DNA of 42,308 nucleotides from an uncultured Clostridia bacterium (GTDB lineage Bacteria > Bacillota > Clostridia > TANB77 > CAG-508): positions 1-42,308 of the forward strand of contig CALXEU010000049.1 in assembly GCA_944387395.1 (NCBI GenBank), written 5' to 3'. This document shows, piece after piece, positions 6,738-35,182 of the stretch. The notes beneath the pieces are model-generated. The model saw only the letters and a list, made by a program, of their open reading frames with translations. It did not search any database and had not been told where the DNA came from. Every line of letters begins with the position of its first letter. Within the stretch, counting starts at the first letter, position 1. The position numbers and the translations under genes were made by a program.

Positions 6738-6766
6738 TTGACAGTGAACATAAAATGATATATAAT
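6738..6766 (+). promoter_or_regulatory. Perfect-consensus promoter of GC-rich cassette 1
   Basis: TTGACA at 6738-6743, a 17-base spacer, and TATAAT at 6761-6766: both hexamers are exact consensus. It lies immediately after the rseP stop codon and drives the GC-rich small gene at 6813. Confidence 0.9.
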
Positions 6767-6812
6767 GTTATTGTTCGAAAGTACACACTCTAATGTATCG
6801 GGAGGAACAGTT

Positions 6813-7067
6813 ATGTCACTCAGCTACAAAGAATCCGAGAAACTCAAGGAGGCCATCGAAGATGGCCTGAGAGCATGGAAAGGAGAAATGCCCGATCTGT
6901 CTGAAAAGACAGAAATGATCTACGAGGAACTCGTGATCGGTCGGACGTGGATTTCTTCGTCCGTTATTGAGAGGGACAATGAAGGCCGGGTTTGCTCGGC
7001 TGGAGTGAAGTTCAAGGTTAAGAGTGGAGACAAATTTACCATCTTGGCCAATTTCAAGGAGGACTAA
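6813..7067 (+). CDS. Small hypothetical protein of GC-rich cassette 1
   Basis: An 84-residue soluble protein beginning MSLSYKESEKLKEAIEDG. I do not recognise the family. The N-terminal 40 residues look helical and acidic; the C-terminal half ('GRVCSAGVKFKVKSGDKF') looks like alternating beta strands. The ATG at 6813 is chosen over an upstream in-frame start at 6765 because GGGAGG sits seven bases before it and the upstream codons overlap the promoter. Base composition stands out: 31 of 60 bases are G or C at 6841-6900, against 16 of 60 at 6661-6720 within rseP. It uses codons such as CTC, CGG and CCC that its neighbours avoid. It has its own perfect promoter and terminator, hence probably acquired as a single unit. 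Confidence 0.75.
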   Translation: MSLSYKESEKLKEAIEDGLRAWKGEMPDLSEKTEMIYEELVIGRTWISSSVIERDNEGRVCSAGVKFKVKSGDKFTILANFKED

Positions 7068-7077
7068 CATTAGAGAA

Positions 7078-7110
7078 GGGGAGCTCATGTTCATTATGAG
7101 CTCCCTTTTT
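7078..7110 (+). terminator. Terminator of GC-rich cassette 1
   Basis: The stem GGGAGCTCAT (7079-7088) / ATGAGCTCCC (7096-7105) has a 7-base loop and is followed by five T. It is a strong intrinsic terminator that would insulate polC from the cassette's promoter. Confidence 0.93.
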
Positions 7111-7164
7111 AAAATTTAAAAAAATAAATATGATTCAAACTAATGCTTTGAAAGGAGCAGAAAA

Positions 7165-10100
7165 GTGGAAGAAACAAAAGTATATAAAAATGTTAAAGAA
7201 GTTTTTAAAGATTATAACTCAAATAGTTTTGAATTAAACGCAGCAAAAGTTATAGGAATAAACTTATATAAAAGAAAACAAGAACTAGAACTTATAATTG
7301 AATCCGATAAAATGATAGATATAAAAGATATTTTGGCAATGGAAAAGTATATGGAAAACCGCTTTCAAGTTAAAGATGCTAGAATAACAATAAAATACTC
7401 TATTCCAAATGGTGAAGAAACAGACGAAAAAGTTTTAAATCAATGGTTAGATATTGTAGAATACATTTCATTTAAACACCCAATAGCAAAGGCATTTTTA
7501 AAGGGAAGCAGTATAAATATAACAAAAAATAAAATATGCGTAACATTAATATCAAAAGGAAAAGAGTTTTTAGAAAGCAATAAATTTAATGATGTTTTTT
7601 CTAAAATAATTGAAAACATTTATAACAAAAAATACGTAATGGAATACAGTGAAAAAGTTCCAGAAGTAAGTATAGAAAAATACAAAGAAATACAAAAGAA
7701 GTTACAAGAAGAAGTAATACATCAAATAACAAGTAATGTGGATTTTTCTGCACATAATAAAACAACAGTAGAAAATAAAAGCAAACAATATTCTAATAAA
7801 TCTACGAATAAACAATACATAAATAAAACATCAAATAAACAAAATACAGTAACTCCAAATAAAACTGAACAATACAAAAATAAAACAACACCAGGAGCAG
7901 ATTTACCTTGGGAAGCAGCTCCTGCTCCAAATTTTGAGCCGGCTCCAAGTCCTGCAGAGGCCAATATACCACAGCAAGAAGAAGATACACCTTTAATTTA
8001 TGGAAGAAGTTTAAATTTAAAGGACGCTATAACCAAGATACAAGATGTAGGAGTTGATAGCGGAAACGTAATAATAGAAGGAGAAATATTAACAGTAAAA
8101 CTTGACGACAAAGATGAGGATATTAACTTAGGAATAAAAGTAAAAGAGCTAAAAACAGGAAAGTTCTTAATAACATTTAGCGTTTATGACGGAACAAATA
8201 CTATAGATTGTAAAGTATTTTCTCAAGCAGACAAAGCCGATAAACTAAAAAAACGCCTAAAAGATGCAAAAAGAATTAGAATTGCAGGAACCGCACAGTT
8301 TGATCCTTATGCAAAACAACTTGGAATTATGGCAAATACAATAATAGAAATGCCAGAAGAAAAGAAGATACAAAGAATGGATACAGCTGCTATAAAAAGA
8401 GTTGAATTACATATGCATACTCAAATGAGCACAATGGATGGTGTAACTCCTGTTAAGGATTTAATAAAGCGTGCTATGAAGTGGGGAATGAAGTCGATTG
8501 CAATAACAGATCATGGTAGTGTACAAGCTTTTCCTGATGCACATAAAATGCTTGGCGTAAACAATCCAGATATGAAAGTACTATATGGAGTAGAAGCATA
8601 TTTAGTACCAGACAAAGTACCATGTATTGGAAATGATAGAGGTCAAGATTTACATACTACATATTGTGTACTAGATTTAGAAACAACTGGACTTTCATTT
8701 AGAACAGAGAAAATAACAGAAATTGGTATTATGAAAATAAATGAGAACGGAGAAGTAATTGACGAATTTGAAACTTTCGTAAATCCAGAAAAACCAATAC
8801 CACAAAGAGTTGTTGAAGTAACGCACATTACAGATGAAATGGTAAAAGATGCAGAAACTATAGACAAAGTTTTCCCTAAAATGTTAGAGTTTATTGGAGA
8901 TAGCGTAATTGTAACACATAACACAGACTTTGATATAGGATTTTTAAAATACAATGCAAAGCAATTAGGATATACATTAGATAATACATATTTAGATACT
9001 TTGCGTTTGGCTAAAGACCTATTTCCAAATTATAAAAAATATAAGTTAGGTGTAATTGCAGAGAATTTAGGAATTGAAGTATTGGTAGCACATAGAGCAT
9101 TAGACGATGTAGATACAACTGTAAAAGTATTCAGAGTAATGCTTAAAATGCTTGACGAAAAGGGAGCAAAAAAACTTTCTGACATAGCAAAAGTAGCAGA
9201 AGGACAAGTAAACTTTAAAAAATTAAAAAGTTTCCATGCAGTAATTCTTGCAAAAGACTATATTGGATTAAGAAATTTATATAAACTTATATCAATTTCA
9301 CATTTGGACTACTTCTATAAAAGACCATTAATTCTAAAATCAATTTACAAACAATATTCTGAGGGCTTAATATTAGGAAGTGCATGCGAAGCAGGAGAAC
9401 TATATCAAGCAATAGAGCAAGGTAAAGACGATGATGAAATAGAAGCAATTGCAAGAGATTATGATTACTTAGAAATTCAACCAACAGGAAATAATATGTT
9501 CCTAGTTAGAAACGGAATTGTACCAGATGTAGAAGCTCTTCAAAATATAAATAGGAAAATAGTTGAATTAGGCGAAAAATTAGACAAACTAGTTGTTGCA
9601 ACATGCGATGTTCACTTTATGGATCCAGAAGATGAAATTTATAGACGTATACTAGAAGCAGGACAAGGCTATGCTGATTGCGATTTGCAAGCCCCACTAT
9701 ATTTAAGAACAACAGATGAAATGCTAGAAGAATTTAGTTATCTAGGAAAAGAAAAGGCTTATGAAGTAGTTGTAACAAACACAAATAAAGTTGCAGATAT
9801 GTGCGAACAGATAAGCCCTATTTCGCCAGAAAAATGTCCACCATACATAAATGATTGTGAGAAAACAATTAAAGATATAGCATACAATAAAGCACATGAA
9901 TTATATGGAGATCCACTTCCTCAAATTGTAGAAGAAAGGTTGGATAAAGAGTTAAATTCAATTATAAAAAATGGTTTCTCAGTTATGTACATTATAGCTC
10001 AAAAGCTGGTATGGAAATCAAATGAGGACGGATATATAGTTGGATCCAGAGGTTCTGTTGGTTCGTCATTTGTTGCAAATATGACGGGTATTACAGAAGT

Positions 10101-11724
10101 AAATTCACTTCCACCACATTATAGATGTCCACATTGTAAGTATTCAGATTTTACAGATTATGGTTATAAGAACGGATTTGACCTACCAGATAAAGAATGT
10201 CCGAAATGTGGACATAAATTAAAAAAGGATGGAATAGATATTCCGTTTGAAACTTTCTTAGGATTTAACGGAGACAAAGAGCCCGATATAGACTTAAACT
10301 TCTCAGGAGAATATCAAGCAAAAGCACACAAATATACAGAAGTAATATTTGGAAAAGGAACAACTTTTAAAGCAGGAACTGTTGGTACAGTAGCAGGTAA
10401 AACTGCTATGGGATATGTTCGTAAATACAATGAAGAAAGAGGAATACCAATTAACAATTCAGAAGTAATAAGAATAGCAGAAGGATGTACTGGAATAAAA
10501 AGAACAACAGGTCAGCATCCAGGAGGAATTATAGTTGTACCAAAAGGAAGAGAAATTTACGAATTTACACCAGTTCAACATCCTGCAGACGATCCAACAT
10601 CGGATATAATAACGACCCACTTTGATTATCACTCAATAGACCAAAACCTATTAAAACTAGATATTCTTGGCCATGATGATCCAACAATGATAAGAATGCT
10701 TTATGATATAACAGGACAAGACCCAACCAAAGTACCACTAGATGATAAGGCAACCATGAGTATATTTTCTTCTACAAAAGCATTAGGGGTAACTCCTGAA
10801 CAAATAAGAAGTGAAGTTGGAAGTTATGGAGTTCCAGAGTTTGGAACAAAATTTGTACGTGGAATGTTGGTAGACACAAGACCTAAAACCTTTGAAGAAT
10901 TAATACGTATATCTGGATTATCACATGGTACTGATGTATGGCTAAATAATGCTCAGGATTTAATTACTGCTGGAACTATAAAACTAGATGAAGCAATATG
11001 TACAAGAGATGATATAATGATATATTTAATAAAAGAAGGTTTGCCTCCACAAAAAGCATTTAAAATAATGGAGTTTGTTCGTAAAGGTAAACCTGCAAAA
11101 GACCCAGAAGGATGGAAGAAACATGAAGAAACAATGAGGGAATATAATATACCAGAGTGGTATATTGGATCTTGTAAAAAAATTAAATACATGTTCCCAA
11201 AAGCACACGCAGCAGCTTATGTTACAAACGCATTTAGAATTGCATGGTTTAAGGTACACATGCCAAAAGCATATTATGCAGCATTTTTCTCAATTAGAGC
11301 TGATGCATTTGATAGCGATATAATGTGTAATGGTGTTGAAAGAGTAAGAAACAAAATGAAAGAAATTGAACTAGCAGGAAAATCTGCAACTAAAAAAGAC
11401 CAAGATACATATTCTGCTTGCGAAATAGTATTAGAGATGTATGAAAGAGGAATTAACTTCTTACCAATTGATTTATATGAATCAGATGCTATTAAATTTA
11501 AAGTGTTACCAGAAGGAATTCGTCCACCACTAAATAGTATACCTGGACTTGGAACTGTTGCAGCACAAGGAATTCAAGAAGCAAGAAAAGATGGAGAATT
11601 TATGTCTATTGACGATTTAAAAATTAGAGCTAAAATTGGAAAGACTACAATAGAAATGCTAGAAAAAGTTGGTTGCTTAAAAGGAATGAGTCAGAGTAAT
11701 CAAATGAGTTTGTTTAACTTTTAG
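7165..11724 (+). CDS. polC: DNA polymerase III subunit alpha, PolC type (with 3'-5' exonuclease)
   Basis: The 1519-residue replicative polymerase of Gram-positive bacteria. Domain order: N-terminal region (1-about 200); Asn/Lys/Gln- then Pro/Ala-rich linker (about 205-275); OB domain (about 300-390); first PHP part ('VELHMHTQMSTMDG', about 411); inserted DnaQ-like exonuclease with 'LDLETTGLS' (about 502), 'THNTDFDIGFL' and 'AHRALDDVDTT'; second PHP part; zinc ribbon 'CPHC...CPKCG' (about 988-1016); polymerase core with 'PDIDLNFSGEYQ' (about 1040); C-terminal helix-hairpin-helix region. It is roughly 80 residues longer than Bacillus PolC, largely because of the low-complexity linker. The GTG start has AAAGGAG upstream. 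proS, usually between rseP and polC, is missing; a GC-rich cassette sits there instead. Confidence 0.98.
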   Translation: MEETKVYKNVKEVFKDYNSNSFELNAAKVIGINLYKRKQELELIIESDKMIDIKDILAMEKYMENRFQVKDARITIKYSIPNGEETDEKVLNQWLDIVEYISFKHPIAKAFLKGSSINITKNKICVTLISKGKEFLESNKFNDVFSKIIENIYNKKYVMEYSEKVPEVSIEKYKEIQKKLQEEVIHQITSNVDFSAHNKTTVENKSKQYSNKSTNKQYINKTSNKQNTVTPNKTEQYKNKTTPGADLPWEAAPAPNFEPAPSPAEANIPQQEEDTPLIYGRSLNLKDAITKIQDVGVDSGNVIIEGEILTVKLDDKDEDINLGIKVKELKTGKFLITFSVYDGTNTIDCKVFSQADKADKLKKRLKDAKRIRIAGTAQFDPYAKQLGIMANTIIEMPEEKKIQRMDTAAIKRVELHMHTQMSTMDGVTPVKDLIKRAMKWGMKSIAITDHGSVQAFPDAHKMLGVNNPDMKVLYGVEAYLVPDKVPCIGNDRGQDLHTTYCVLDLETTGLSFRTEKITEIGIMKINENGEVIDEFETFVNPEKPIPQRVVEVTHITDEMVKDAETIDKVFPKMLEFIGDSVIVTHNTDFDIGFLKYNAKQLGYTLDNTYLDTLRLAKDLFPNYKKYKLGVIAENLGIEVLVAHRALDDVDTTVKVFRVMLKMLDEKGAKKLSDIAKVAEGQVNFKKLKSFHAVILAKDYIGLRNLYKLISISHLDYFYKRPLILKSIYKQYSEGLILGSACEAGELYQAIEQGKDDDEIEAIARDYDYLEIQPTGNNMFLVRNGIVPDVEALQNINRKIVELGEKLDKLVVATCDVHFMDPEDEIYRRILEAGQGYADCDLQAPLYLRTTDEMLEEFSYLGKEKAYEVVVTNTNKVADMCEQISPISPEKCPPYINDCEKTIKDIAYNKAHELYGDPLPQIVEERLDKELNSIIKNGFSVMYIIAQKLVWKSNEDGYIVGSRGSVGSSFVANMTGITEVNSLPPHYRCPHCKYSDFTDYGYKNGFDLPDKECPKCGHKLKKDGIDIPFETFLGFNGDKEPDIDLNFSGEYQAKAHKYTEVIFGKGTTFKAGTVGTVAGKTAMGYVRKYNEERGIPINNSEVIRIAEGCTGIKRTTGQHPGGIIVVPKGREIYEFTPVQHPADDPTSDIITTHFDYHSIDQNLLKLDILGHDDPTMIRMLYDITGQDPTKVPLDDKATMSIFSSTKALGVTPEQIRSEVGSYGVPEFGTKFVRGMLVDTRPKTFEELIRISGLSHGTDVWLNNAQDLITAGTIKLDEAICTRDDIMIYLIKEGLPPQKAFKIMEFVRKGKPAKDPEGWKKHEETMREYNIPEWYIGSCKKIKYMFPKAHAAAYVTNAFRIAWFKVHMPKAYYAAFFSIRADAFDSDIMCNGVERVRNKMKEIELAGKSATKKDQDTYSACEIVLEMYERGINFLPIDLYESDAIKFKVLPEGIRPPLNSIPGLGTVAAQGIQEARKDGEFMSIDDLKIRAKIGKTTIEMLEKVGCLKGMSQSNQMSLFNF

Positions 11725-11899
11725 ATATATGTATATTTTTAAATTTTTTGTTCTTGTTGTCGAAGCCTATAATCATGAAAAATAAAAATATTTTTTATTT
11801 TCATGGAAGGAAGGCTTCTCCAATTGTCGCACTCGCATTAAAATGCTCGTTTGCTTGCTACGCGAACTGCAAAATTTCTCAAAATATACATATATCTAA
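11721..11899. repeat. 179-bp MITE-like element with perfect 19-bp inverted ends
   Basis: TTAGATATATGTATATTTT at 11721-11739 recurs as its exact reverse complement at 11881-11899. The polC stop TAG (11722-11724) lies inside the left arm. Inside are a strong hairpin with GAAGCC (11763-11768) / GGCTTC (11813-11818) enclosing an AT-rich palindrome beginning and ending in CATGAAAA/TTTTCATG, and smaller stems (GCATTAAAATGC; GTTTGC/GCGAAC). There is no open reading frame of note. ACTT occurs next to both ends (11717-11720 and 11899-11902), possibly a short target duplication. It could be a non-autonomous mobile element or a structured 3' region of the polC transcript; copy number elsewhere would decide. 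Confidence 0.6.
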
Positions 11900-11940
11900 C
11901 TTATTTAAAAAATTAAAGGGAAAATAAAGGAATATAAAAA

Positions 11941-12237
11941 ATGAATATACAAAATATTTTTACATTAGAAAACATAATAATATATTTAATAATTATCAAT
12001 ATAATTGCATTTTTAGCGATGCTTATAGATAAGAAAAAGGCAGAAAGAGGTAGCTGGAGAATAAAAGAAAGTACACTTTTAACTTTAGCACTAATTGGTG
12101 GAAGCATTGGTGCAATTGCTGGAATGTATAAATTCAGGCATAAAATTCAAAAAGCAAGATTTTTTATAGGACTTCCTATAATTATAGTATTACAGATTTT
12201 ATTAGTTATTGCAGTGATTACTAATACGGTTAAATAA
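11941..12237 (+). CDS. DUF1294 family small membrane protein
   Basis: A 98-residue protein with three hydrophobic spans. The family pattern is clear: 'MLIDKKKAERGSWRIKES' after the first span, then 'LIGGSIGAIAGMYKFRHK' and 'KARFFIGLPI'. DUF1294 proteins are widespread, membrane-embedded and of unknown function. AAAGGA provides the ribosome binding site. It is a monocistronic gene between the inverted-repeat element after polC and a perfect terminator at 12253. Nothing in the context indicates a pathway. Confidence 0.88.
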   Translation: MNIQNIFTLENIIIYLIIINIIAFLAMLIDKKKAERGSWRIKESTLLTLALIGGSIGAIAGMYKFRHKIQKARFFIGLPIIIVLQILLVIAVITNTVK

Positions 12238-12252
12238 AGAATAATAGAGTTT

Positions 12253-12282
12253 AAAAATAGCAAGAATAACCTTGCTATTTTT
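12253..12282 (+). terminator. Terminator after DUF1294 gene
   Basis: AAAAATAGCAAG (12253-12264) and CTTGCTATTTTT (12271-12282) form a perfect 12-bp stem with a 6-base loop, ending in a T-run; it may work in both directions. Confidence 0.92.
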
Positions 12283-12326
12283 ATGTTTTTAAAGTAAAAT
12301 AGAAACATGAAAGCGAGGGTGAGATT

Positions 12327-14006
12327 ATGAAAAAATTACCTAAAGGAATAAGTAATTACGAAGAGCTAATTGAAGATGGATATTATTATGTAGATAAGAC
12401 AATGTATATAGAAAAACTAGAATCTTTGGCAGATAAAAGAATAATGTTTTTAAGACCAAGAAAATTTGGAAAAACATTATTTACGAGTATGATTGAAAAT
12501 TATTATGACATACAGAAGGCAGAAAAGTTTGAAAAACTATATGGAGAGACATATATAGGAAAAAATCCAACAAATCTAAAAAATAGCTATTACATATTAA
12601 AGTTTAACTTTTCGGGAATAAATACGGAAAGTGAAGAAACAACAATGAAAGGATTTAGAGAAAAAGTAATAACCTCAATAAAAAGTTTTGTAACAAAATA
12701 TAATCTAGATTTCTATATAAACGAAGAACAAACAACAGAAGGAATGTTAAATAGCTTATTTGAAGCATTTACATATCAAAGACTGCATGGAAAGATATAT
12801 GTAATTATAGACGAATACGACCATTTTGCAAATGAGTTATTAGGATTTAATACAGAAAAATTTAAGTCATTGGTATCAAAGAATGGAAGAGTTCGTAAGT
12901 GGTATGAAATACTAAAACAAGGAACAGAAAGCGTAGTAGATAGAATATTTATAACAGGAGTAGCACCAATAACACTAGATAGCTTAACATCAGGATTTAA
13001 TATTAGTGCAGATATAACAAAAGATAGAAAATTTAATGAAATGATGGGATTTACACAAGAAGAATTAAAAAAATTAATGAATGAGCAAAACATAAAACAA
13101 GAAGAACAAGAAAAGTTATTACCAATAATGAAAGAAAACTATGATGGATATAAATTTTCTATAGAAGCGACAAGTAAAATTTATAATTCAAATATGGCTT
13201 TATATTTTTTAAATGAATATGTACAATACAAAGAAATACCAAAACAATTAATAGATGTAAACATAGCAAGTGATTATAGCAAATTAGAAAAAATGTTAGA
13301 TTTATGTCAAGACGAAGAAAGAGAAAGCATAATAAAGAAAACAATAGCAGGAGAAGGAGTGCTAACAGAAATAACAGAAAAATTTAACCCTGCAATGGAA
13401 TTTACAATAAAAGATTTTTCGTCAATGTTATTTTACTTAGGATACTTAACAATAGTAGAGGAAAGATTAGGGAAAGCAGAATTACAAATACCCAATAATG
13501 TAATGAGAGAAATATATTCTTCATATTTTCTAGACAGAATAACTAAAAAAGGAGAACTAAAAGTATCAGAAGAAATATATAATAAAATATTAGAAGAAAT
13601 AGCATTAGAAGGAAAAATAGATAAAATTGTAGAAGTATTACAAATGTATTTAAATAACCTATCGAACAGAGATTTTCAAAACTTTGATGAAAAATATGTT
13701 AAATTAATATTTTACTGTATAGCAATGAATTTAAAAATATACTCCGTAAAATCAGAAATGGAAGTAAACAGAAAATATCCAGATATATTAATGGTACCAA
13801 GAGAAAGAGAAAAGGGTTATAATGTAATAATGGTAGAATTTAAATATTTAAAAAAAGGTGAAGAAAAGAAATTAAAAGAAAAACAAAAAGAAGCAAGAGA
13901 GCAAATGGAAGAATATTCAAACTTTGAAGATATTAAAGACATAGAAAAATTAAACAAGTATACAATTGTAACAGTAGTAGATAAAATATATTTGGAAAAA
14001 TTGTAA
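12327..14006 (+). CDS. AAA-ATPase-like protein with C-terminal PD-(D/E)XK nuclease-like domain
   Basis: A 559-residue protein of the AAA-ATPase-like plus PDDEXK_9 architecture (Pfam PF09820 and PF08011, formerly DUF1703). The Walker A-like segment is 'FLRPRKFGKTLF' near residues 42-53, in which RPRKFGKT replaces the classical GxxxxGK[ST]. Walker B is 'YVIIDEYDHF' near residues 157-166. The C-terminal nuclease-like motif is 'YPDILMVP' (about 484) followed by 'MVEFKYLKKG' (about 502), the D and E-x-K of the restriction-endonuclease fold. The family is very abundant in gut bacteria and has no proven function; DNA processing or defence has been suggested but is not shown. GAGGGTGAG precedes the ATG. 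It stands alone, with no toxin, methylase or partner gene beside it. Confidence 0.9.
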   Translation: MKKLPKGISNYEELIEDGYYYVDKTMYIEKLESLADKRIMFLRPRKFGKTLFTSMIENYYDIQKAEKFEKLYGETYIGKNPTNLKNSYYILKFNFSGINTESEETTMKGFREKVITSIKSFVTKYNLDFYINEEQTTEGMLNSLFEAFTYQRLHGKIYVIIDEYDHFANELLGFNTEKFKSLVSKNGRVRKWYEILKQGTESVVDRIFITGVAPITLDSLTSGFNISADITKDRKFNEMMGFTQEELKKLMNEQNIKQEEQEKLLPIMKENYDGYKFSIEATSKIYNSNMALYFLNEYVQYKEIPKQLIDVNIASDYSKLEKMLDLCQDEERESIIKKTIAGEGVLTEITEKFNPAMEFTIKDFSSMLFYLGYLTIVEERLGKAELQIPNNVMREIYSSYFLDRITKKGELKVSEEIYNKILEEIALEGKIDKIVEVLQMYLNNLSNRDFQNFDEKYVKLIFYCIAMNLKIYSVKSEMEVNRKYPDILMVPREREKGYNVIMVEFKYLKKGEEKKLKEKQKEAREQMEEYSNFEDIKDIEKLNKYTIVTVVDKIYLEKL

Positions 14007-14106
14007 AAAATATTAGAAATGCAATGAAAAATTAATATCTACTATAATATTATAACAGTAAAAATGTTAAGAAAAAATAAATTTAGTAAGATATAATTAG
14101 AAAAAA

Positions 14107-14262: not shown

Positions 14263-14281
14263 GGAAGGAATGTGAACAAAA

Positions 14282-14977: not shown

Positions 14978-14985
14978 AAAATGTA

Positions 14986-25819: not shown

Positions 25820-25832
25820 AAAGGAAAAATCT

Positions 25833-26897: not shown

Positions 26898-26931
26898 AGC
26901 TTGTAGCCAAAAAAGGAAGGAGACTTTATAT

Positions 26932-27921
26932 TTGAAAATTTCTATAATTATACCAGTTTATAATGGAGAGAAATATTTATCTAGATGTTTAGATAGTATA
27001 ATAAATCAAACATATACAAATTTTGAAATAATAGCAATTAATGATGGTTCAACTGATAATTCAAAACAAATTCTAGAAGAATATGCTAATAAATACAAAA
27101 GTTTTTTTAAGTATATAGAACAATCTAATTCAGGAATTGCCATTACCAGAAATAACGGATTGAAAATGGTAACAGGAGAATATATAACATTTATGGATGA
27201 TGACGATTTTTTAGATTTAGATTATTTTGAAACATATATGAAATATGCTAATGAGTATAATTTAGATGTTATAGTTGGAGGATTTAAAAGACCTAATAGT
27301 AGTGGGAAGATAATAAAAAAAGTTAATTTACCAACTGGAGAAAAAGAATCTAAATGGGCTAAGTTTAGATATCTAACTCCATGGGCTAAAATATATAAAA
27401 CAAGCTATATTAATGAAAATAATATAAAATTCTTAGATATAAATGTGGGGGAAGATTTATATTTTGAATTACAAGCTTTGCTTATGACTGACAAAATAAA
27501 AGTTATAGATTATGCAGGATATAACTGGTTTTATAACGAAAAAAGTGTGTCAAATACAATTCACAAAAATATTAGACAAGTAGATTTTTATAGATTATTA
27601 AATGAGAATTATAACATTTTGAGGCAAAGAAATTTGTTAGAAAAGAACTATGATTATATAGAAACTTACTTTTTCATATTTTCAAATTGGTTTCTAATGT
27701 ATTCTACTAAAAAAATGCCATATAAAATTATTTGTGAAGAATATAACAAACTAAATTTATGGCTATTAGAACATTTTCCAAACTTCAAGAAAAATAAATT
27801 TATTAGAATAGGAAATCTAAAGGGAGAGGAGCGAGTAAATCAAATTGCATATTTTATAATAATGTGCGGATATAAATTACACTTTGGTAAACAACTTGTA
27901 TGGCTATATAGTAAAATATAA
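26932..27921 (+). CDS. Glycosyltransferase family 2 (paralogue B)
   Basis: A GT2 enzyme of 329 residues starting at TTG 26932, chosen because AAGGAAGGAG lies nine bases upstream and the family N-terminus 'KISIIIPVYNGEKYLSRCL' follows at once. An upstream in-frame TTG (26887) would fall inside the hairpin. Metal-binding motif 'YITFMDDDDFL', then 'GEDLYFELQALL'. It is similar to the preceding gene over its whole length, so a tandem duplication is likely; differences in the donor region ('MDDDDF' versus 'IDNDDY') suggest a changed or related sugar specificity. It is the last gene of the glycan run. Confidence 0.9.
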   Translation: MKISIIIPVYNGEKYLSRCLDSIINQTYTNFEIIAINDGSTDNSKQILEEYANKYKSFFKYIEQSNSGIAITRNNGLKMVTGEYITFMDDDDFLDLDYFETYMKYANEYNLDVIVGGFKRPNSSGKIIKKVNLPTGEKESKWAKFRYLTPWAKIYKTSYINENNIKFLDINVGEDLYFELQALLMTDKIKVIDYAGYNWFYNEKSVSNTIHKNIRQVDFYRLLNENYNILRQRNLLEKNYDYIETYFFIFSNWFLMYSTKKMPYKIICEEYNKLNLWLLEHFPNFKKNKFIRIGNLKGEERVNQIAYFIIMCGYKLHFGKQLVWLYSKI

Positions 27922-27945
27922 GAAATTTACTAGAAAGCATTTCCA

Positions 27946-27975
27946 TTGATTATGTAAACACCCAAATGCTATAAT
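27946..27975 (+). promoter_or_regulatory. Promoter of the ChW autolysin
   Basis: TTGATT (27946-27951), an 18-base spacer and an exact TATAAT (27970-27975) preceded by TG at the extended -10 position. An inverted repeat TGTAGA/TCTACA lies just after it, around the probable transcription start. Confidence 0.85.
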
Positions 27976-28022
27976 ATTACTTGTAGATAGAATTCTACAA
28001 AAATATTATAGGAGGATAACGC

Positions 28023-30164
28023 ATGGGAAGATTTAAGAAAATACTGTCTATTATTCTAATGACTGTATTAATACAATCTTTTATTGGAGTTAACTTTGTT
28101 TCTTTAGCAAGTAGTACATATAATCAAACTATGGCTACTGCTAATTCAAGTAACAACAACGGGATTGACGAATTCCCTGAGAGCTATCAAACATTACTTA
28201 GAAAATTAGTATCGAGTACAGGACGTACAAATTGGAAATTCATAGCTTTTAATACAGACATAGAATGGAAGGAACTAATAGAAAACGAAACAGATTGTTT
28301 GCATAATACAATATATAAAAGTCCTACTTCACCATATCCAGATTCTTGGTATGATGAATGTGGAAATAGGGGAGATGTAAATTTCTATTGTGCATCTGAA
28401 GAAATAATTAGTTATTATTTAGATCCAAGAAACTTCTTAACAGAGATTACGATATTTCAATTTTTAGATTTATCTAACAATCAAAAAGCATCACTTGCAC
28501 AAATTCAATCGGCAGTGAAAGGTACATATTTAGAAGGAAATGTAAATGGAGATTCTTATGCACAAATGATATATGATGCAGCAGAAGCATCTGGAGAAAG
28601 TGCTTTTAGTATAATTGTAAGAATATTTCAAGAGCTAGGAAGAGGAACAAGCCTGCCACATAATATTTCAGGAAAAGATAGTAAGTATCCGGGAGTATAT
28701 AATTTCTTTAATTATGGTGCAACAGATGGAGATGGAAGCTTAGAAAGAGCACTTGCTTATGCACAAAATGCTGGATGGACATCTGCAAGAAAAGCATTAA
28801 TAGAAGGTGCAAAATTAATATCTAATAACTACACAAAAGCAGGACAAGTTAATAAGTATTTATACAAATTTGACGTTGTTGGGACAACTAAAAGCCAGTT
28901 ATATAGACATCAATACATGACTAATGTTGAGGATCCAAATTCACAAGCATATAACTTATATTCTATGTATTCTTCAAACAATTGGTTAAAAAATGATTTA
29001 GTATTTGTAATTCCTGTTTATAAAAATATGCCTTCATATGTTAAGCTACCTTCAAAACAAACTGGAGATTTATACTATGTAAGTTCAAATTATACTCCAG
29101 TAACTTGGAGAAATGCACCAAACGGAGCAAGTATTGGAACATTAAAAAAAGATACTGTAGTTACGATGTTAGAAGCAAATGTTAATGGATTTGGAAAGAT
29201 TATGGTAGATGGTAAAATTGGCTATATGTCAATGCAATACTTAACAAAATTAGGAACAACACAGGATGGACAAAAACCATCAGGAGGTGGAACAACAACA
29301 AAACCAGGGGAAGAACATTTAGGTGGAGAAAAAGATTCTCAAGCTCTAATATCATATAAAGCTCAAATACAGGATATTGGATGGTCGTCTTGGGCAAGTG
29401 ATGGAGAAACAATGGGGACGATAGATAAATCAAAGAGATTAGAAACAATTCAAATAGAACTTAAAGAAGAATTAAAACAAAGTGGATTAAAATATAGAGT
29501 TCATGTGCAGGATATTGGCTGGATGAGTTGGAGTGCAAATGGAGAAACTGCAGGAACAGTTGGAAAGTCAAAAAGAATAGAGGCAGTTCAAATTGTGCTA
29601 GAAAACTCAGAGTTATATGATATTGAGTATAGAGTTTATGTACAAAACATTGGATGGATGAATTGGAGTAAAAACGGAGAAATAGCAGGAACAGTTGGAG
29701 CAGCACTAAGAATTGAAGCAATTCAAATCAGACTTGTAGAAAAAACAGCAAATAATAATATAAGTATCAAGTATTCATCTCATGTACAAAATGTTGGATG
29801 GACATCATATGTTGAAAACGGTAAAATTTCTGGAACAGAAGGAAAATCATTAAGATTAGAGGGAATTTCAATTAAATTAAGTGGAGCAAACACAACAACA
29901 TCAAATCTAATCGAATATAGAGTACATGTTCAAGATATAGGATGGATGAACTGGGTACAAGAAGCAGAACTTGCAGGAACAGTTGGAAAAGGAAAAAGAA
30001 TAGAGGCAATACAAATAAAAGTAAATAGTAAATTAGGAAAAAATATTAAATATAGAGTACATGTACAAGATATTGGATGGACAAAATGGGTATCTAATGG
30101 CCAGACTGCTGGAACAGAAGGACAATCAAAACGAATTGAAGCAATTGAGATTAAGTTAGAATAA
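28023..30164 (+). CDS. Secreted glucosaminidase-like autolysin with SH3 and six ChW repeats
   Basis: 713 residues. Residues 1-about 30 form a signal peptide. Residues about 50-345 resemble the LytG/GH73-like endo-beta-N-acetylglucosaminidase family: 'FPESYQTLLRKLVSSTGRTN' then 'WKFIAFNTDIEWKELIENE', 'YYLDPRNFLTEITIFQFLDL' and 'IIVRIFQELGRGTS'. Residues about 350-410 are a bacterial SH3-like domain ('VTWRNAPNGASIGTLKKD'). A Gly/Thr/Lys linker follows, then six ChW repeats of about 45 residues ('YRVHVQDIGWMSWSANGETA' and relatives) ending at the C-terminus. ChW repeats are typical of clostridial surface proteins and probably bind the cell wall. The enzyme would trim peptidoglycan. AGGAGG precedes the ATG. 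Confidence 0.88.
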   Translation: MGRFKKILSIILMTVLIQSFIGVNFVSLASSTYNQTMATANSSNNNGIDEFPESYQTLLRKLVSSTGRTNWKFIAFNTDIEWKELIENETDCLHNTIYKSPTSPYPDSWYDECGNRGDVNFYCASEEIISYYLDPRNFLTEITIFQFLDLSNNQKASLAQIQSAVKGTYLEGNVNGDSYAQMIYDAAEASGESAFSIIVRIFQELGRGTSLPHNISGKDSKYPGVYNFFNYGATDGDGSLERALAYAQNAGWTSARKALIEGAKLISNNYTKAGQVNKYLYKFDVVGTTKSQLYRHQYMTNVEDPNSQAYNLYSMYSSNNWLKNDLVFVIPVYKNMPSYVKLPSKQTGDLYYVSSNYTPVTWRNAPNGASIGTLKKDTVVTMLEANVNGFGKIMVDGKIGYMSMQYLTKLGTTQDGQKPSGGGTTTKPGEEHLGGEKDSQALISYKAQIQDIGWSSWASDGETMGTIDKSKRLETIQIELKEELKQSGLKYRVHVQDIGWMSWSANGETAGTVGKSKRIEAVQIVLENSELYDIEYRVYVQNIGWMNWSKNGEIAGTVGAALRIEAIQIRLVEKTANNNISIKYSSHVQNVGWTSYVENGKISGTEGKSLRLEGISIKLSGANTTTSNLIEYRVHVQDIGWMNWVQEAELAGTVGKGKRIEAIQIKVNSKLGKNIKYRVHVQDIGWTKWVSNGQTAGTEGQSKRIEAIEIKLE

Positions 30165-30181
30165 TATTGTATATTAATTAA

Positions 30182-30221
30182 ACCAGAAAGGTCAGCTGAA
30201 AAGCTGGCCCTTCTGGTTTCG
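30182..30221 (+). terminator. Terminator after the ChW autolysin
   Basis: AACCAGAA / TTCTGGTT outer stem and CAGCT / AGCTG inner stem with a GAAA loop, a GC-rich hairpin starting about 17 bp after the stop codon. The following T-run is short, so efficiency is uncertain. Confidence 0.75.
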
Positions 30222-30257
30222 TTAGCATGAAATAGCCTAAAAATTAAACTCCTAATA

Positions 30258-30286
30258 TTGATTTTTTATGTAATATATAGTAGAAT
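30258..30286 (+). promoter_or_regulatory. Promoter of the epimerase-like gene
   Basis: TTGATT (30258-30263) and TAGAAT (30281-30286) with a 17-base spacer, 36 bp before the ATG. Confidence 0.75.
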
Positions 30287-30321
30287 ATAAAAAGATTTCA
30301 TATGAAAGGAGAAAACCACTT

Positions 30322-31191
30322 ATGCAAAGTCAAATAATTACAACAAGCCTTGGTGGAGAACTAATAAGTTATAAACTAAATGGCGAAGAAAGAATACATC
30401 AGGGTGCAGACTGTGTAGATGAAAAAGGAAAACCATATTGGAAAAGACACTTTCCCGTACTATTTCCAACAGTTGGAAAACTAAAGCAAAACAAAACTAT
30501 AATAAATGGAAAAACTTATGAAATGAGCCAACACGGTTTTGCAAGAGACTTAGAATTTGAGCCAGTAACAAAACTAGACAACTTCCATTCATATGTATTA
30601 AGAAGCAATCCAAGCACATATGCAAAATATCCTTACGACTTTTCGCTTTATGTTACATACAAAACATACGAGAATGAACTAACTACAATATATAAAGTAG
30701 TAAACGAAGGCGATAGCAACATGATTTTTGGAATAGGTGGACATCCAGCATTTAAAATAGATCAAAAAGCATTATTAAATGGTGAATATTATCTAGAGTT
30801 CGAACAAGAAGAAGAAAAAGTACATTTTCTATATCTAATAGATGGACTAATAGGAACAGATTATGCTAAAAATATATTAATATATAAAAGAAGAATTCAA
30901 ATTGATAAAAACACATTTGACAATGATGCCATAATAATAAAAAATATGACTTCACATAAAATAAGCTTAAAACAAAGAACTGGAAATAAAACACTATTAA
31001 CTATGGATTTTGAAGGATTCCCATATTTAGGAATATGGTCTAAACCAGGGGCACCATTTATATGTATAGAACCATGGTATTCTACTGCAGACACTTTAAC
31101 AAGTTCTGGAGTATTTGCTCAAAAAAGCAATATGATATCTTTACCACCTAAAAAGGAATTCGAATGTAAATATACTGTAGAGTTTTTTTAA
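30322..31191 (+). CDS. Aldose 1-epimerase family protein
   Basis: A 289-residue beta-sandwich sugar mutarotase-like enzyme that would interconvert alpha and beta anomers of a hexose or hexose phosphate. The N-terminus 'TTSLGGELISYKLNGEERIH' and 'FPVLFPTVGKLK' are typical, 'MSQHGFARD' provides the first conserved His-Gly and 'FGIGGHPAFKI' the second conserved His. The C-terminal 'FICIEPWYSTADT' contains the catalytic Glu region. The substrate is unknown; phosphorylated sugars are possible given similarity to LacX-type members. AAAGGAG lies upstream. Only 24 bp separate it from the next small gene. Confidence 0.9.
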   Translation: MQSQIITTSLGGELISYKLNGEERIHQGADCVDEKGKPYWKRHFPVLFPTVGKLKQNKTIINGKTYEMSQHGFARDLEFEPVTKLDNFHSYVLRSNPSTYAKYPYDFSLYVTYKTYENELTTIYKVVNEGDSNMIFGIGGHPAFKIDQKALLNGEYYLEFEQEEEKVHFLYLIDGLIGTDYAKNILIYKRRIQIDKNTFDNDAIIIKNMTSHKISLKQRTGNKTLLTMDFEGFPYLGIWSKPGAPFICIEPWYSTADTLTSSGVFAQKSNMISLPPKKEFECKYTVEFF

Positions 31192-31215
31192 TGAAAGTGC
31201 ATAAGGGAAAATAAT

Positions 31216-31401
31216 ATGAAGGAAATAATTATAATACTAATTGGTGTGCTGATAAGCACTGTTGGAGTAGTAATGATTTATGATGCAAGAGCTATTGCTA
31301 AAGATAGGTTTAGTTCAAACGAAATAAACGAAACAACAAAAATGTTAAAAATAGTAGGATTTATAGTGGCTCTAATTGGAGCATTAATAATATACTTTTA
31401 A
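31216..31401 (+). CDS. Small two-span membrane protein, unknown function
   Basis: 61 residues with two hydrophobic helices (about 3-24 and 43-60) joined by a charged loop 'DARAIAKDRFSSNEINETTK'. AAGGGA precedes the ATG. I do not assign a family; similar short proteins are common in Clostridia. It is probably cotranscribed with the epimerase-like gene. Its stop codon lies inside a 14-bp hairpin. Confidence 0.7.
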   Translation: MKEIIIILIGVLISTVGVVMIYDARAIAKDRFSSNEINETTKMLKIVGFIVALIGALIIYF

Positions 31402-31612
31402 TTTATAGAAAATTGTATTTTCTATAAATTAAATATAATGCACAGAAAAATTACAAAGCAATTTTTCGCGGCAACAAATCTTATAACGCTTCTTGCTAGA
31501 CCATAAATTAATGCAGAAAATATAAATTACAAAGAAAAGGTCTAGCAAAGCTAGATTTGTTCTAAAATATAGGAACATGTTATTGCTCCTATAATTTCAT
31601 TAAAAATGAACA
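31399..31612. promoter_or_regulatory. Multi-hairpin region before valS
   Basis: Between the small membrane gene and valS five stems follow one another: a perfect 14-bp hairpin (31399-31412/31418-31431) containing the upstream stop codon; GAAAAATT/AATTTTTC (31445-31467); a two-tier structure with TTGCTAGACC/GGTCTAGCAA (31493-31502/31539-31548) inside AACAAATC/GATTTGTT (31473-31480/31554-31561); TATAGGA/TCCTATA (31568-31593); and TTCAT/ATGAA (31596-31610). No T-box sequence (TGGTACCGCG) is present. It may be an unrecognised valS leader, or a terminator plus a palindromic element. Confidence 0.5.
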
Positions 31613-31639
31613 CTTCTAAAAAATAGAGGAGGAAAATAA

Positions 31640-34297
31640 ATGTTAGAGGGAAAATTTGAACCAAAAGAGTTTGAGGATAATATTTATAAAAAATGGGAAG
31701 AGAAAGGCTATTTTAAGCCTAGTATGGATACAAGAAAGGAATCATATTGTATTGTAATGCCTCCACCAAATGTAACAGGAAAGTTACATATGGGACATGC
31801 ACTAGATGCTAGTATTCAAGATTTATTAATTAGATACAAAAGAATGAGAGGATATAATACTCTTTGGTTACCTGGAACAGATCATGCAGCATTATCTACA
31901 GAAGCAAAAATTGTTGCAAGTTTAAAAGAAGAAGGTCTAAAGAAAACTGATATAACCAGAGAACAATTCCTAGATAGAGCATGGGATTGGACAAAGTTAT
32001 ATGGTGGAACAATAGTAGCTCAGCAAAGAAAACTAGGAGCATCTTGCGACTGGTCTCGTAGTAGATTTACGATGGATAAAGGACTATCTAAAGCAGTAAC
32101 AGAAGCCTTTAAGCAATTATATAACAAAGGTTATATATATAAAGGAAAGAGAATGATAAATTACTGTACAGGATGTAAAACTTCTATATCAGATGCTGAG
32201 ATAGAGTATAAAGAAGAAACAACTCATTTATGGTATATTAATTATCAAGTAAAAGGAGAAGATAGATTTTTAACTGTTGCAACAACTAGACCAGAAACTA
32301 TGTTAGGAGACACTGCAGTAGCTGTAAATCCTAATGATGATAGATATAAGGACTTAATTGGAAAGACATGTATTTTACCAATTATGAATAAAGAAATTCC
32401 AATAATAGGAGACAGATTTGTAGAAACAGAGTTTGGTACAGGTGCAGTAAAGGTAACTCCTGCACATGATATGAACGATTACCAAGCAGGTTTAAATCAT
32501 AACTTACCTGTAATAGAAGTATTTGATGAAGATTTAAAAATGAACGATTTATGTCCAGAATTTGCCAGAATGAATATTTATGAAGCAAGAGAAAAGATAG
32601 TCCAAAAGCTAAAAGAATTAGGAAACTTGATAAAAATAGAAGATTATACACACAGTGTTGCAAAATGTGACAGATGCCATAGTACAATTGAACCAAGAAT
32701 TTCTGACCAATGGTTTGTAAAGATGAGTGAACTTGCAAAGCCCGCAATCGAAGCAGTAAAAAATGGAGAAGTTAAATTTGTTCCAGAAAGATATAGTAAA
32801 ACATATTTCAATTGGATGGAAAATTTAAAAGATTGGTGTATATCACGTCAAATTTGGTGGGGACATCAAATTCCTGTATATTACTGTGATAAATGTGGTC
32901 ATATAGAGGTAGGAGATGGTATGCCAGATAAATGTTCAAAATGCGGTGGCAATACCTTTACCCAAGATACAGACACGCTAGATACATGGTTTAGTTCAGC
33001 ATTGTGGCCATTTTCAACACTTGGTTGGCCAGATAAAAATTCAGAAGACCTAAAAACATTTTATCCAACAAATACTCTAGTTACTGGATATGATATAATC
33101 CAAAGCTGGGTATCTAGAATGATATTCTCTGGACTTGAATACATGGGCGAAAAACCATTTGAAAATGTTGTAATCCATGGAATTGTAAGAGATAGTCAAG
33201 GAAGAAAAATGTCTAAGAGTTTAGGTAATGGTATAGATCCAATAGAGATAATAGAAAGATATGGAACAGATGCCTTAAGATTTTCTCTAATAATGGGAAT
33301 TACACCAGGAAATGACATAAGATATATTCCAGAAAAACTAGAAAGTGCATCAAACTTTGCAAATAAATTATGGAATGCATCAAAATTTGTATTAATGAAT
33401 ATAGATAAAGAACAAATTAAAGTAAATAGTGAAATAAATGTAGAAGACTTAATGTATGAAGATAAGTGGATTTTATCTAAATTAAATACTTTAATTGAAG
33501 AAATAAATACAAATATAGATAATTTCGATTTAGGTGTATATGCTCAAAAAATTTATGATTTTATATGGAATGAATTTTGTGATTGGTATATAGAAATGGT
33601 AAAACCAAGATTATATAACAAAGGTCTAAATAAAGAAAATGATAAAAAGTCAAGTATAACTGCACAAAAAGTGTTAAACAAAGTTCTTTGCGATATATTA
33701 AAACTATTACATCCAATAATGCCATTTATTACTGAAAGAATATATCAAGAACTATGTAATAATGATGAAAGCATAATGATTTCATCTTGGCCAGTTGCAG
33801 ATAGTAAATATGCGTTTAAAGAAGAGGAAAATTATATAGAAGAATTAAAAAATATAATTGGACAAATAAGAAATGCAAGAACGGAAATGAATGTTCATCC
33901 ATCAAAAAAATCAGATTTAATCTTTGTAACAACAGAGTCTGAATTTGAGAAAACAATTCTAGATTCAAAATTATGGATTGAAAAACTTGGATTTTCAGAC
34001 AATATATTAGTACAAAAAGATGAAAAAGATATTCCTACAAAAGCCGTATCTGCTTTAGCAAATGGCATAAAAGTGTTTATTCCATTTGAAGAACTAATAA
34101 ATATAGAAGAAGAAAGAGCAAAGTTACAAACAGAAAGGAAAAAGTTAGAGGCAGAGGTACAAAGAAGCACAAAAATGCTTTCAAATCCTGGATTTTTAAA
34201 TAAGGCTCCTGCTGAAAAAGTAGAAGAAGAAAAACAAAAAATGAAGAAATATCAAGATATGCTAAAAGATACTATAACAAGATTAGAACAATTATAA
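31640..34297 (+). CDS. valS: Valyl-tRNA synthetase
   Basis: An 885-residue class I synthetase that charges tRNA-Val and edits misactivated threonine. HMGH signature near residue 50 within 'PPPNVTGKLHMGHALDAS', KMSKS near residue 524 ('GRKMSKSLGNG'), an internal zinc-ribbon-like 'CDKCGH...CSKCGG' near residues 416-438, and the ValRS-specific C-terminal coiled coil (about 815-885, 'EEERAKLQTERKKLEAEVQR'). The length is normal. AGAGGAGG precedes the ATG. There is no T-box upstream, unlike ileS in the same window. Confidence 0.98.
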   Translation: MLEGKFEPKEFEDNIYKKWEEKGYFKPSMDTRKESYCIVMPPPNVTGKLHMGHALDASIQDLLIRYKRMRGYNTLWLPGTDHAALSTEAKIVASLKEEGLKKTDITREQFLDRAWDWTKLYGGTIVAQQRKLGASCDWSRSRFTMDKGLSKAVTEAFKQLYNKGYIYKGKRMINYCTGCKTSISDAEIEYKEETTHLWYINYQVKGEDRFLTVATTRPETMLGDTAVAVNPNDDRYKDLIGKTCILPIMNKEIPIIGDRFVETEFGTGAVKVTPAHDMNDYQAGLNHNLPVIEVFDEDLKMNDLCPEFARMNIYEAREKIVQKLKELGNLIKIEDYTHSVAKCDRCHSTIEPRISDQWFVKMSELAKPAIEAVKNGEVKFVPERYSKTYFNWMENLKDWCISRQIWWGHQIPVYYCDKCGHIEVGDGMPDKCSKCGGNTFTQDTDTLDTWFSSALWPFSTLGWPDKNSEDLKTFYPTNTLVTGYDIIQSWVSRMIFSGLEYMGEKPFENVVIHGIVRDSQGRKMSKSLGNGIDPIEIIERYGTDALRFSLIMGITPGNDIRYIPEKLESASNFANKLWNASKFVLMNIDKEQIKVNSEINVEDLMYEDKWILSKLNTLIEEINTNIDNFDLGVYAQKIYDFIWNEFCDWYIEMVKPRLYNKGLNKENDKKSSITAQKVLNKVLCDILKLLHPIMPFITERIYQELCNNDESIMISSWPVADSKYAFKEEENYIEELKNIIGQIRNARTEMNVHPSKKSDLIFVTTESEFEKTILDSKLWIEKLGFSDNILVQKDEKDIPTKAVSALANGIKVFIPFEELINIEEERAKLQTERKKLEAEVQRSTKMLSNPGFLNKAPAEKVEEEKQKMKKYQDMLKDTITRLEQL

Positions 34298-34301
34298 ATA
34301 A

Positions 34302-34337
34302 AAAATCAACCGGGAGTCCAATGGGCTCCCGGTCTTT
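34302..34337. terminator. Convergent terminator of valS and GC-rich cassette 2
   Basis: ACCGGGAG / CTCCCGGT with an inner CCA/TGG step forms a very stable stem around 34309-34333. On the minus strand it is followed by TGATTTTTT, a good T-run, so it most likely ends the minus-strand gene and also stops valS. Its high GC fits the cassette rather than valS. Confidence 0.9.
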
Positions 34338-34350
34338 TGGATTACTGCTT

Positions 34351-34710
34351 TTACATCTGCTTAAGCTCCTTTTCGAGCTTATCAGCTTCCCGGAGTAAGA
34401 ACTCGCTCAGCATGTCCTTCTCTTCCTTACATGCTTCTGCTCTCTCGCGAAGACGAGCAATCCTTTCCCTCATCAGAAGGATTGAACTTTTTCTCTGGAG
34501 CTTACCCAAAAGGTCCAAGTTCAAAAGCATGCTGGGGTGGCCACAAATTACCACCTTTTTGGAATTGGGCACACTGTTCATCAAAGGATGAGCAGCACTT
34601 ACGACCTCAGGCAGAGAGTTTGCGTACTGGAGGAACTCTTGAGCCGAATCCTCTTTCGAGAATTCAAAAACATGAGTATTCACTCGTGCAGTAGTCCGGT
34701 TAGTAGTCAT
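34351..34710 (-). CDS. Small hypothetical protein of GC-rich cassette 2
   Basis: 119 residues from the ATG at 34710 (MTTNRTTARVNTHVFEFS). This start is chosen over upstream in-frame codons because AAAGGAG lies eight bases before it. The N-terminal half contains 'SKEDSAQEFLQYANSLPEVV' and 'KKVVICGHPSMLLNLDLL', possibly an alpha/beta fold; the C-terminal half, 'RKSSILLMRERIARLRERAE' onward, is strongly helical, probably a coiled coil. I do not recognise the family. About 47% G+C by hand count (28 of 60 at 34441-34500), far above valS. It has its own perfect promoter and terminator and lies opposite to its neighbours, which marks it as a separate acquisition. Confidence 0.75.
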   Translation of the reverse strand: MTTNRTTARVNTHVFEFSKEDSAQEFLQYANSLPEVVSAAHPLMNSVPNSKKVVICGHPSMLLNLDLLGKLQRKSSILLMRERIARLRERAEACKEEKDMLSEFLLREADKLEKELKQM

Positions 34711-34765
34711 AAACATGACTCCTTTCAAAAATTTTTTCAAGTGTGAAACACCTGTTAATATATAT

Positions 34766-34794
34766 ATTATAATACTAAAACTTTGATATGTCAA
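34766..34794 (-). promoter_or_regulatory. Perfect-consensus promoter of GC-rich cassette 2
   Basis: On the minus strand TTGACA (34794-34789), 17 bases, TATAAT (34771-34766): both hexamers and the spacing are ideal. Confidence 0.9.
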
Positions 34795-34858
34795 TGTATT
34801 TGAACGAATTTACATAAAATAAAAACTAAAAAGAAGAAAAATGTAATAAATTTATATA

Positions 34859-34897
34859 AAAAAGCCGCCCCGGCTCAAGTAGAGCAGGTGCGGCAGA
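34859..34897 (-). terminator. Terminator of GC-rich cassette 3
   Basis: On the minus strand GCCGCACCTGCTC and GAGCCGGGGCGGC form a 13-position stem with two mismatches and a 5-base loop, followed by six T. It lies just after the TAA of the zinc-finger-like gene. Confidence 0.92.
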
Positions 34898-34901
34898 GCG
34901 T

Positions 34902-35111
34902 TTATTTCCCTAAAATTTCCTCCTTTTCGGATTTTAACAGGTAGTCTGGATTAAACCAGGAACCTGGAACCAATCCAGATCCCCTACACCGAGGGCAAGT
35001 TGCTAATGTTGCTACAGATTTGCGAGAACCCGGTCTAGCTGGTTTAACACCTACTAGAACCCGTTTCAGACCCTCACAGGCCCTGCACTTTACCATTTCA
35101 GTATTCGGCAT
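34902..35111 (-). CDS. Small DnaJ-type zinc-finger-like protein of GC-rich cassette 3
   Basis: 69 residues from the ATG at 35111, placed ten bases after AAAGGAG. Two cysteine knuckles are visible: CRAC near residues 9-12 ('MVKCRACEGLKRV') and CPRCRGSG near residues 39-46 ('TCPRCRGSGLVPG'), the second identical in form to the CxxCxGxG repeats of the DnaJ cysteine-rich domain. Together they could bind one zinc ion. A basic segment (KPARPGSRKS) lies between. There is no J domain or substrate-binding domain, so this is not a chaperone gene; small stand-alone proteins of this kind may bind protein or nucleic acid. G+C is about 53% (32 of 60 at 34981-35040). Family unknown. Confidence 0.75.
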   Translation of the reverse strand: MPNTEMVKCRACEGLKRVLVGVKPARPGSRKSVATLATCPRCRGSGLVPGSWFNPDYLLKSEKEEILGK

Positions 35112-35153
35112 AGTAATACACTCCTTTTTCAAAATGTTCATACAAACAATTGT

Positions 35154-35182
35154 ATTATATACATTTTAGCACGTTCTAGAAA
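35154..35182 (-). promoter_or_regulatory. Promoter of GC-rich cassette 3 (good -10, weak -35)
   Basis: On the minus strand an exact TATAAT lies at 35159-35154; the -35 position holds TTTCTA, which is weak. It lies 42 bp before the ATG. Confidence 0.65.

Follow-up and report, generated by a model that had tools for sequence, protein, structure and literature searches.

Single-gene cassettes of foreign composition between housekeeping genes of an AT-rich Clostridia genome, and mobilizable elements as their candidate vehicle

Results

Three cassettes in the window

The DNA analysed in this study, hereafter the window, is a 42,308-nt stretch of contig CALXEU010000049.1 from the draft genome of an uncultured Clostridia bacterium (G000), in which three GC-rich segments, designated cassettes c1, c2 and c3, were read and their open reading frames (ORFs) called. 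Each cassette comprises one small gene with its own predicted promoter and terminator, c1 being located between rseP and polC, and c2 and c3 between valS and a ThiF/TcdA-type gene (Table 1). An earlier note made from the sequence alone had described the cassettes in these terms, with housekeeping rather than phage genes at their sides, two perfect promoters among the three (c1 and c2, that of c3 being weak), stable terminators and products of 69-119 residues without a recognised family; that description was found to be correct in almost every detail, while its interpretation was partly right. The folding energies of the three terminator hairpins were not matched by any of 200 shuffles. No tRNA was found at c1-c3, nor was there an Rfam match.

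Table 1. Features of the window, further GC-rich genes of G000 and loci of a putative retroelement (positions in the window unless a locus is named)
Feature	Location	Strand	Remarks
c1 promoter	6738..6766	+	predicted; TTGACA-17-TATAAT, 12/12 consensus positions
c1 gene	6813..7067	+	ORF; 84 aa, near-orphan; ribosome site GGGAGG at 6800-6805
c1 intrinsic terminator	7074..7110	+	predicted hairpin, -24.6 kcal/mol, z -7.2
c2 promoter	34766..34794	-	predicted; perfect TTGACA-17-TATAAT
c2 gene	34351..34710	-	119 aa; ~80-residue domain and helical C-terminal extension (low-confidence model)
c2 terminator	34308..34334	-	predicted hairpin, -18.4 kcal/mol; near-identical sequence in G192 relative
c3 promoter region	35154..35191	-	predicted; weak -35, TATAAT at 35154-35159, 9/12 consensus
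c3 gene	34902..35111	-	ORF; 69 aa, two CxxC pairs; DnaJ CXXCXGXG-like, below cut-off
c3 terminator	34864..34894	-	predicted hairpin, -20.5 kcal/mol
Alignable span of c2 and G192 unit	34294..34833	-	from the DNA upstream of the promoter through the terminator; approximate limits
rseP (c1 left flank)	5962..6732	+	
polC (c1 right flank)	7165..11724	+	
valS (c2 left flank)	31640..34297	+	
ThiF/TcdA-type gene (c3 right flank)	35301..36017	+	TcdA model below its cut-off
c4	L048		73 aa
c5	L080		77 aa
c6	L083		120 aa, secreted-like by eye
c7	G000:C56		167 aa, two hydrophobic stretches by eye
c11	L048		HD domain
Retroelement locus	L054 (G000:C12) 1-2800		
Retroelement locus	L055 11616-11987		
Retroelement locus	L084 9964-10497		
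Retroelement locus	L100 57-428		

The composition of the segments sets them apart, as the note had stated, their peak GC content being 0.51-0.52 per 150 bases as compared to 0.267 in a genome sample of 679,510 of 1,239,783 bases, made up of the window and no more than 20 kb from any one of contigs C1-C61. The GC content at third codon positions (GC3) is 0.60 for c1, 0.53 for c2 and 0.36 for c3, against a mean of 0.15 over 375 ORFs of the genome sample with 200 or more residues (standard deviation 0.03, 99th percentile 0.22, maximum 0.36), so that the value for c3 equals, but does not exceed, the native maximum. Promoter scores of the cassettes c1-c11 (n=11), including those introduced below, exceed those of 211 native genes by a modest margin (p = 0.013). 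The similarity of the c2 and c3 leaders was also borne out: the leader TTTTGAAA..GGRG common to both occurs in 1 of 457 ORFs (at least 100 aa, with a ribosome site) as compared to 4 of the 13 leaders examined from cassettes (nine of the engB slot described below in addition to c1-c3 and c10), or 2 of 11 once the defining c2 and c3 are set aside.

Protein searches, in line with the note's proposal to cluster the products, identified c1-c3 as near-orphans, with 3, 1 and 2 clusters for c1, c2 and c3, respectively, among 5.8 billion sequences, the window's own included. The c1 gene was found in its own genome alone among 95 and c3 likewise among 195, while c2 was present in 3 of 195 genomes. A scan of GTDB r220 genomes, based on two short peptides and perhaps excluding the organism's own records, returned no relative of c1, and the rseP-polC junction is free of such a gene in all five relatives read (G002, G003, G004, G005 and G006). 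No boundary sequence common to c1-c3 emerged from the comparison of flanks; blastn with flanks (c1-c6 and c8-c10) paired c8 with c9 alone, and a common end sequence was consequently dropped as a candidate. A few short AT-rich matches of the ends to other loci (E 1e-4 to 0.01), including a match of the c2/c3 border to the L160 flank, were judged to be due to chance, and kinship between c4 and L157 and between c3 and L156 was dropped as the similarity was not significant.

Pfam and NCBIfam yielded nothing above cut-off for c1-c3, and the same holds for c4-c10 in Pfam and for c4-c7, c9 and c10 in NCBIfam. PHROGs and PADLOC, which come without cut-offs, gave weak matches of c3 to phrog_6060 (anti-termination Q-like, E 0.0045) and PDC-M01B (E 0.011), respectively, and none below E 0.1 for the other cassettes scanned. 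The structure models of c1 and c2 were of low quality (pLDDT 61.5 and 68.9), and fold searches with them retrieved nothing from the PDB at a threshold of E 0.001.

A relative of c2 at a different site in another genus

An indication of mobility is provided by c2, which in genus g1 is located at the 3' end of valS and whose protein relatives in two genomes of genus g2 (G192 and G179) are located between engB and gltX (31-33% identity, E 3-4e-6, over the ~80-residue domain). Based on the similarity over this domain c2 belongs to the engB-slot family as defined here. The likeness to the G192 unit extends into the adjoining DNA on both sides, with an alignment score of 69 upstream (best of 300 shuffles, 32) and of 49 across the downstream and terminator region (best of 300 shuffles, 34). 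Since the two units are alike from promoter to terminator and occupy different slots, the whole unit must have changed place or have been transferred; sequence comparison thus suggests that c2 relocated, or moved between genera, as a complete promoter-gene-terminator unit. A distant relationship may also exist between the engB-slot proteins of genera g1 and g2 (hhalign of the g2 group against those of g1, probability 46, E 2e-4).

Intergenic slots with changing content

Sixteen engB loci were read, three of which (G010, G011 and G017) were not assigned to a content class. At least nine of the 16 hold, directly after engB and before gltX, one or two small genes with a GC3 of at least 0.29: two each in G000 and G002, and one each in G003 (c10), G004, G005, G006, G012, G016 and G192. 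These cassettes are mostly 67-138 codons long, and the two in G000, which lie outside the genome sample, have GC3 values of 0.34 and 0.57. The slot of G179 holds a single gene of GC3 0.22, those of G008 and G014 an ordinary gene, and that of the congener G001 is empty, consisting of 52 bases with a host hairpin. In an alignment of G003 with G001 the cassette is bordered by the engB end on one side and by convergent gltX on the other, its own hairpin standing at the position of the host hairpin in G001. Five further engB loci that lacked a defined slot (L260, L261, L263, L264 and L271) presented no clear case.

Content also varies at other sites. The valS 3' slot holds c2 and c3 in G000 and an ordinary gene in G006. 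Relatives of c5 occur in 6 other genomes of 195, beside uvrA in three genera and at a different site in G034, and two of them carry an internal stop. Between polC and glyS, cassettes in G005 and G004 (c8/c9) encode proteins that are 55% identical, with synonymous (pS) and non-synonymous (pN) differences of 0.64 and 0.31, as compared to 0.36 and 0.013 for the part of PolC compared between the same genomes, and their terminators differ. As the divergence of c8 and c9 is well above that of PolC, simple inheritance does not account for it, and either one copy was replaced or both arrived separately.

At least seven more GC-rich small genes were found in G000 (c4, c5, c6, c7, c11 and the two in the engB slot), and two further genes, at L052 (GC3 0.17) and L226 (GC3 0.29), adjoin the element end motif described below. 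An automatic detector recovered c1-c5 and three false positives in G000, a single cassette (c10) in 398,845 bases of G003, and two native-looking genes and no more in 399,400 bases of G006; as it depends on a clean hairpin and did not pick up c6, c7 or c11, these counts are low bounds.

Two neighbouring genes are of note in themselves. In G003 the valS 3' slot contains a purB gene of GC3 0.32, convergent to valS (L117, G003:C15, 11110-12570). The ThiF/TcdA-type gene of the window shares 69-71% identity with its counterparts in G006, G063 and G065, which belong to other genera or families, as compared to 55-60% with congeners, and none was found in the congener G002.

Carrier elements of the c7 and HD families

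Members of two sister families, those of c7 and of the HD-domain gene c11, are found by themselves as well as in the cargo of elements that encode a MobV relaxase. The c7 family is present in 8 of 195 family genomes (its own included), representing 7 of 39 genera, at many different sites. Named GTDB records, an overlapping set, contribute 19 loci; 18 of these belong to Clostridia, Clostridiaceae or Peptococcaceae metagenome-assembled genomes (MAGs), many of whose isolate labels contain animal names, and one to an SR1 bacterium. Intact c7 copies among nine loci possess their own promoter-like and terminator-like sequences. The HD gene is common (40 of 195 genomes), some copies having host-like GC3.

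In several genomes c7 is bounded by an end motif, TTGATTGATATTTGTATCAATCGTYAAGA followed by ~40 bases ending in CACCA or CTCCA, which was found in 20 of 56 relatives, a reversed control pattern being found in none. Homology ends exactly at this motif between G000 and a rabbit MAG (L185; 82% over 1119 bp starting there) and between G020 and G022 (99.7% over 1307 bp, with unrelated DNA beyond), and many further pairs of loci lose homology at the same point. The motif holds a promoter-like sequence and two hairpins; its best Rfam matches are below gathering scores and an assignment as an Rfam RNA was rejected, the loss of homology at this point in many pairs making an element end the better reading.

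A cargo gene lies to the left of the motif. Among 32 motif contexts, 8 of which had fewer than 400 bases on that side, a MobV relaxase match is present in 10 (one ~6.6 kb away) and a serine recombinase in three (full in L208 and L215, a remnant in L214); many element copies lack one or the other gene. The motif adjoins c7 in G000 and the gene at L226; the G000 contig that carries the HD gene c11 contains no motif, and in G020 and G022 the HD gene is motif-bounded cargo.

Directly beyond the motif, 19 of 33 site records present an intrinsic-terminator-like hairpin, as compared to 281 of 4000 intergenic control positions (7%) and 127 of 3000 positions anywhere. As the G020 and G022 elements are near-identical and the DNA beyond their motifs differs, these terminator-side sequences are those of the host. 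The position of c2, c3 and the engB slot, likewise at gene ends, is consistent with terminator-side placement.

Members of this mobilizable-element family, with its conserved double-hairpin end beside host terminators, were encountered across the bacterial order (L155-L184 and L208-L226). In their left part the MobV gene is preceded by a further region of hairpins, and at L052 (G000:C10, 354-1376) two element ends stand in tandem at a distance of ~954 bases and enclose a gene of 128 aa and low GC content.

Discussion

Taking these data together, we consider it probable that c1-c3 are one-gene units of foreign composition which entered separately and settled between housekeeping genes, having been carried there by mobilizable elements; units like c2 likely spread one gene at a time. 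The vehicle of the window cassettes is suggested by analogy with the sister families c7 and HD. Integrative mobilizable elements resembling Tn4451, with a serine recombinase and MobV, would bring such units from cell to cell and would insert next to terminators; decay of the carrier would then leave the bare promoter-gene-terminator unit, later copies of which could be exchanged by recombination through the conserved flanking genes. Such a unit, equipped with a promoter and terminator of its own, would be functional at once and would disturb its neighbours little. As a guess, the proteins may have a role in phage or plasmid conflict. A far-reaching version, which we put forward tentatively and regard as somewhat doubtful, is that units drawn from phage and plasmid pools roam the whole family, with a terminator-choosing element, carrier erosion and interspecies swapping giving rise to private sets of immediately usable orphan genes in each species of these AT-rich Clostridia.

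If correct, the proposal describes a specific way in which near-orphan genes come into a genome singly and in working order, a common puzzle in work on orphan genes. The route is testable, since the present data identify slots, an unoccupied site and a candidate for the end of the carrier, and terminator-side insertion of the carrier would represent a useful target rule for a recombinase family.

Several observations weigh against the proposal. At c1-c3 the end motif is absent (allowing up to 5 mismatches), tblastn detects no MobV match in the window, and the genes directly flanking the cassettes are not serine recombinases, no recombinase-directed search of the window having been made. For c1 and c3 there is no known relative at a second site, and their mobility therefore rests on analogy; c1, moreover, is situated within a co-directional gene row in which no host terminator is visible. 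The relatives of c2 are distant, and G192 alone displays clear likeness in the flanking DNA: G179 and G006 share the c2-type protein, but their upstream scores are reached by 77 and 49 of 300 shuffles and their downstream scores by 9 of 300 each, while for the first slot gene of G002 the figures are 3 of 300 upstream and 172 of 300 downstream. Direct repeats at c8, a single case, were not clear-cut. Finally, the engB-slot genes of G004 and G005 have diverged to the same degree as their hosts (pS 0.31 versus 0.36) and yet retain GC3 values of 0.72 and 0.64, so that composition by itself is no proof of recent arrival; GC-rich codons may be maintained by selection, besides recent arrival. High GC3 can persist under vertical descent, and the term recently acquired need not fit each cassette. 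Of the two broader suggestions of the earlier note, that of mobile single-gene units is supported by the c2 relative in another slot and genus and extends to c1 and c3 by analogy, and that of a shared delivery mechanism is supported in part: it finds a candidate in the elements that carry c7 and HD genes, the end motif and MobV of which are lacking at c1-c3.

Among the alternatives, that of phage-derived morons, remnants of decayed prophages or products of illegitimate recombination of phage DNA, with no mobilizable element involved, appears unlikely but survives best. A moron is an autonomous accessory gene in a temperate phage, and small near-orphans with their own signals are typical of the class. 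The cassettes c1-c3 share with morons their existence as single genes with their own predicted promoter and terminator, their atypical composition, their location between unrelated genes and their absence from relatives; in addition, c7, alone among the cassettes searched, has clear viral relatives, in four IMG/VR contigs (35-41% identity) and in a 595-kb phage record (34%), the neighbours of the viral c7 loci L204, L205 and L207 being phage-like by eye, a judgement made without a profile search, and c3 has the weak PHROG match described above. No relative of c7 was found in plasmids. However, searches of 50,697 phage records for c1-c6 and c9 and of IMG/VR for c1, c3, c5 and c6 returned no match, and c1-c3 are not surrounded by a phage genome, their flanks being rseP, polC, valS and the ThiF/TcdA-type gene. 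The assertion in the earlier note that the cassettes represent the very definition of phage morons thus does not stand: they are moron-like in their workings, while membership fails in the absence of a surrounding phage. Accessory and moron loci are treated in PMC7067206.

A somewhat less probable alternative is that the cassettes are old resident hypervariable genes, a lineage-specific group of small genes evolving fast, kept GC-rich through codon or mRNA selection and inherited mostly vertically at fixed slots. The recurrence of engB-slot genes in genera g1, g2 and g12, the location of c5 relatives beside uvrA in three genera and the host-like divergence of the GC-rich G004/G005 pair all favour this explanation; it is difficult to reconcile with the occurrence of c2, c5 and c7 at different slots, the empty slot of G001, the excessive divergence of c8 and c9, and the confinement of c1 and c3 to their own genome among those searched, five congeners included. 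An assembly chimera, or the joining of contaminating fragments to the contig, can be considered highly improbable. In its favour, the draft is fragmented (86 contigs, contamination estimate 4.53%). Against it, the c3 protein is listed on four contigs of which the longest is the window's, the contigs given in the database for c1 (at 99% identity) and c2 (at 100%) measure 559 and 566 bases and are not that of the window, related cassettes share one locus in two genomes, and leaders and promoters are AT-rich as in the host.

Among the closest known systems are the Tn4451-type integrative and mobilizable elements, with a serine recombinase and a MobV relaxase, which are reviewed in PMC5704250. The sister carriers resemble these in their large serine recombinase (two full and one remnant) and MobV relaxase and in their variable cargo and many insertion sites; they differ in that the cargo is one or two small genes and the conserved end lies beside intrinsic terminators, and c1-c3 show no element parts. 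The word 'terminator' is absent from the main text of PMC5704250, and none of the PMC titles and abstract openings listed describes single-gene cassettes at terminators, which is no proof of absence. Integron cassettes are likewise mobile one-gene units, but those described here carry their own predicted promoter and terminator and have no common recombination site at their ends. Integration hot spots with flank exchange share the fixed intergenic slot with different accessory genes in each species, but the present slots hold one or two genes rather than islands.

Further observations

G000 likely contains a diversity-generating retroelement, as suggested by a reverse transcriptase (RVT_1), an AAC-rich template-like repeat and several genes with variable C-termini (..GFRPVVVVL), distributed over separate contigs (Table 1). 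Within the window, a T-box leader (Rfam RF00230) was identified at 37165-37405, upstream of a 1049-aa ORF at 37485.

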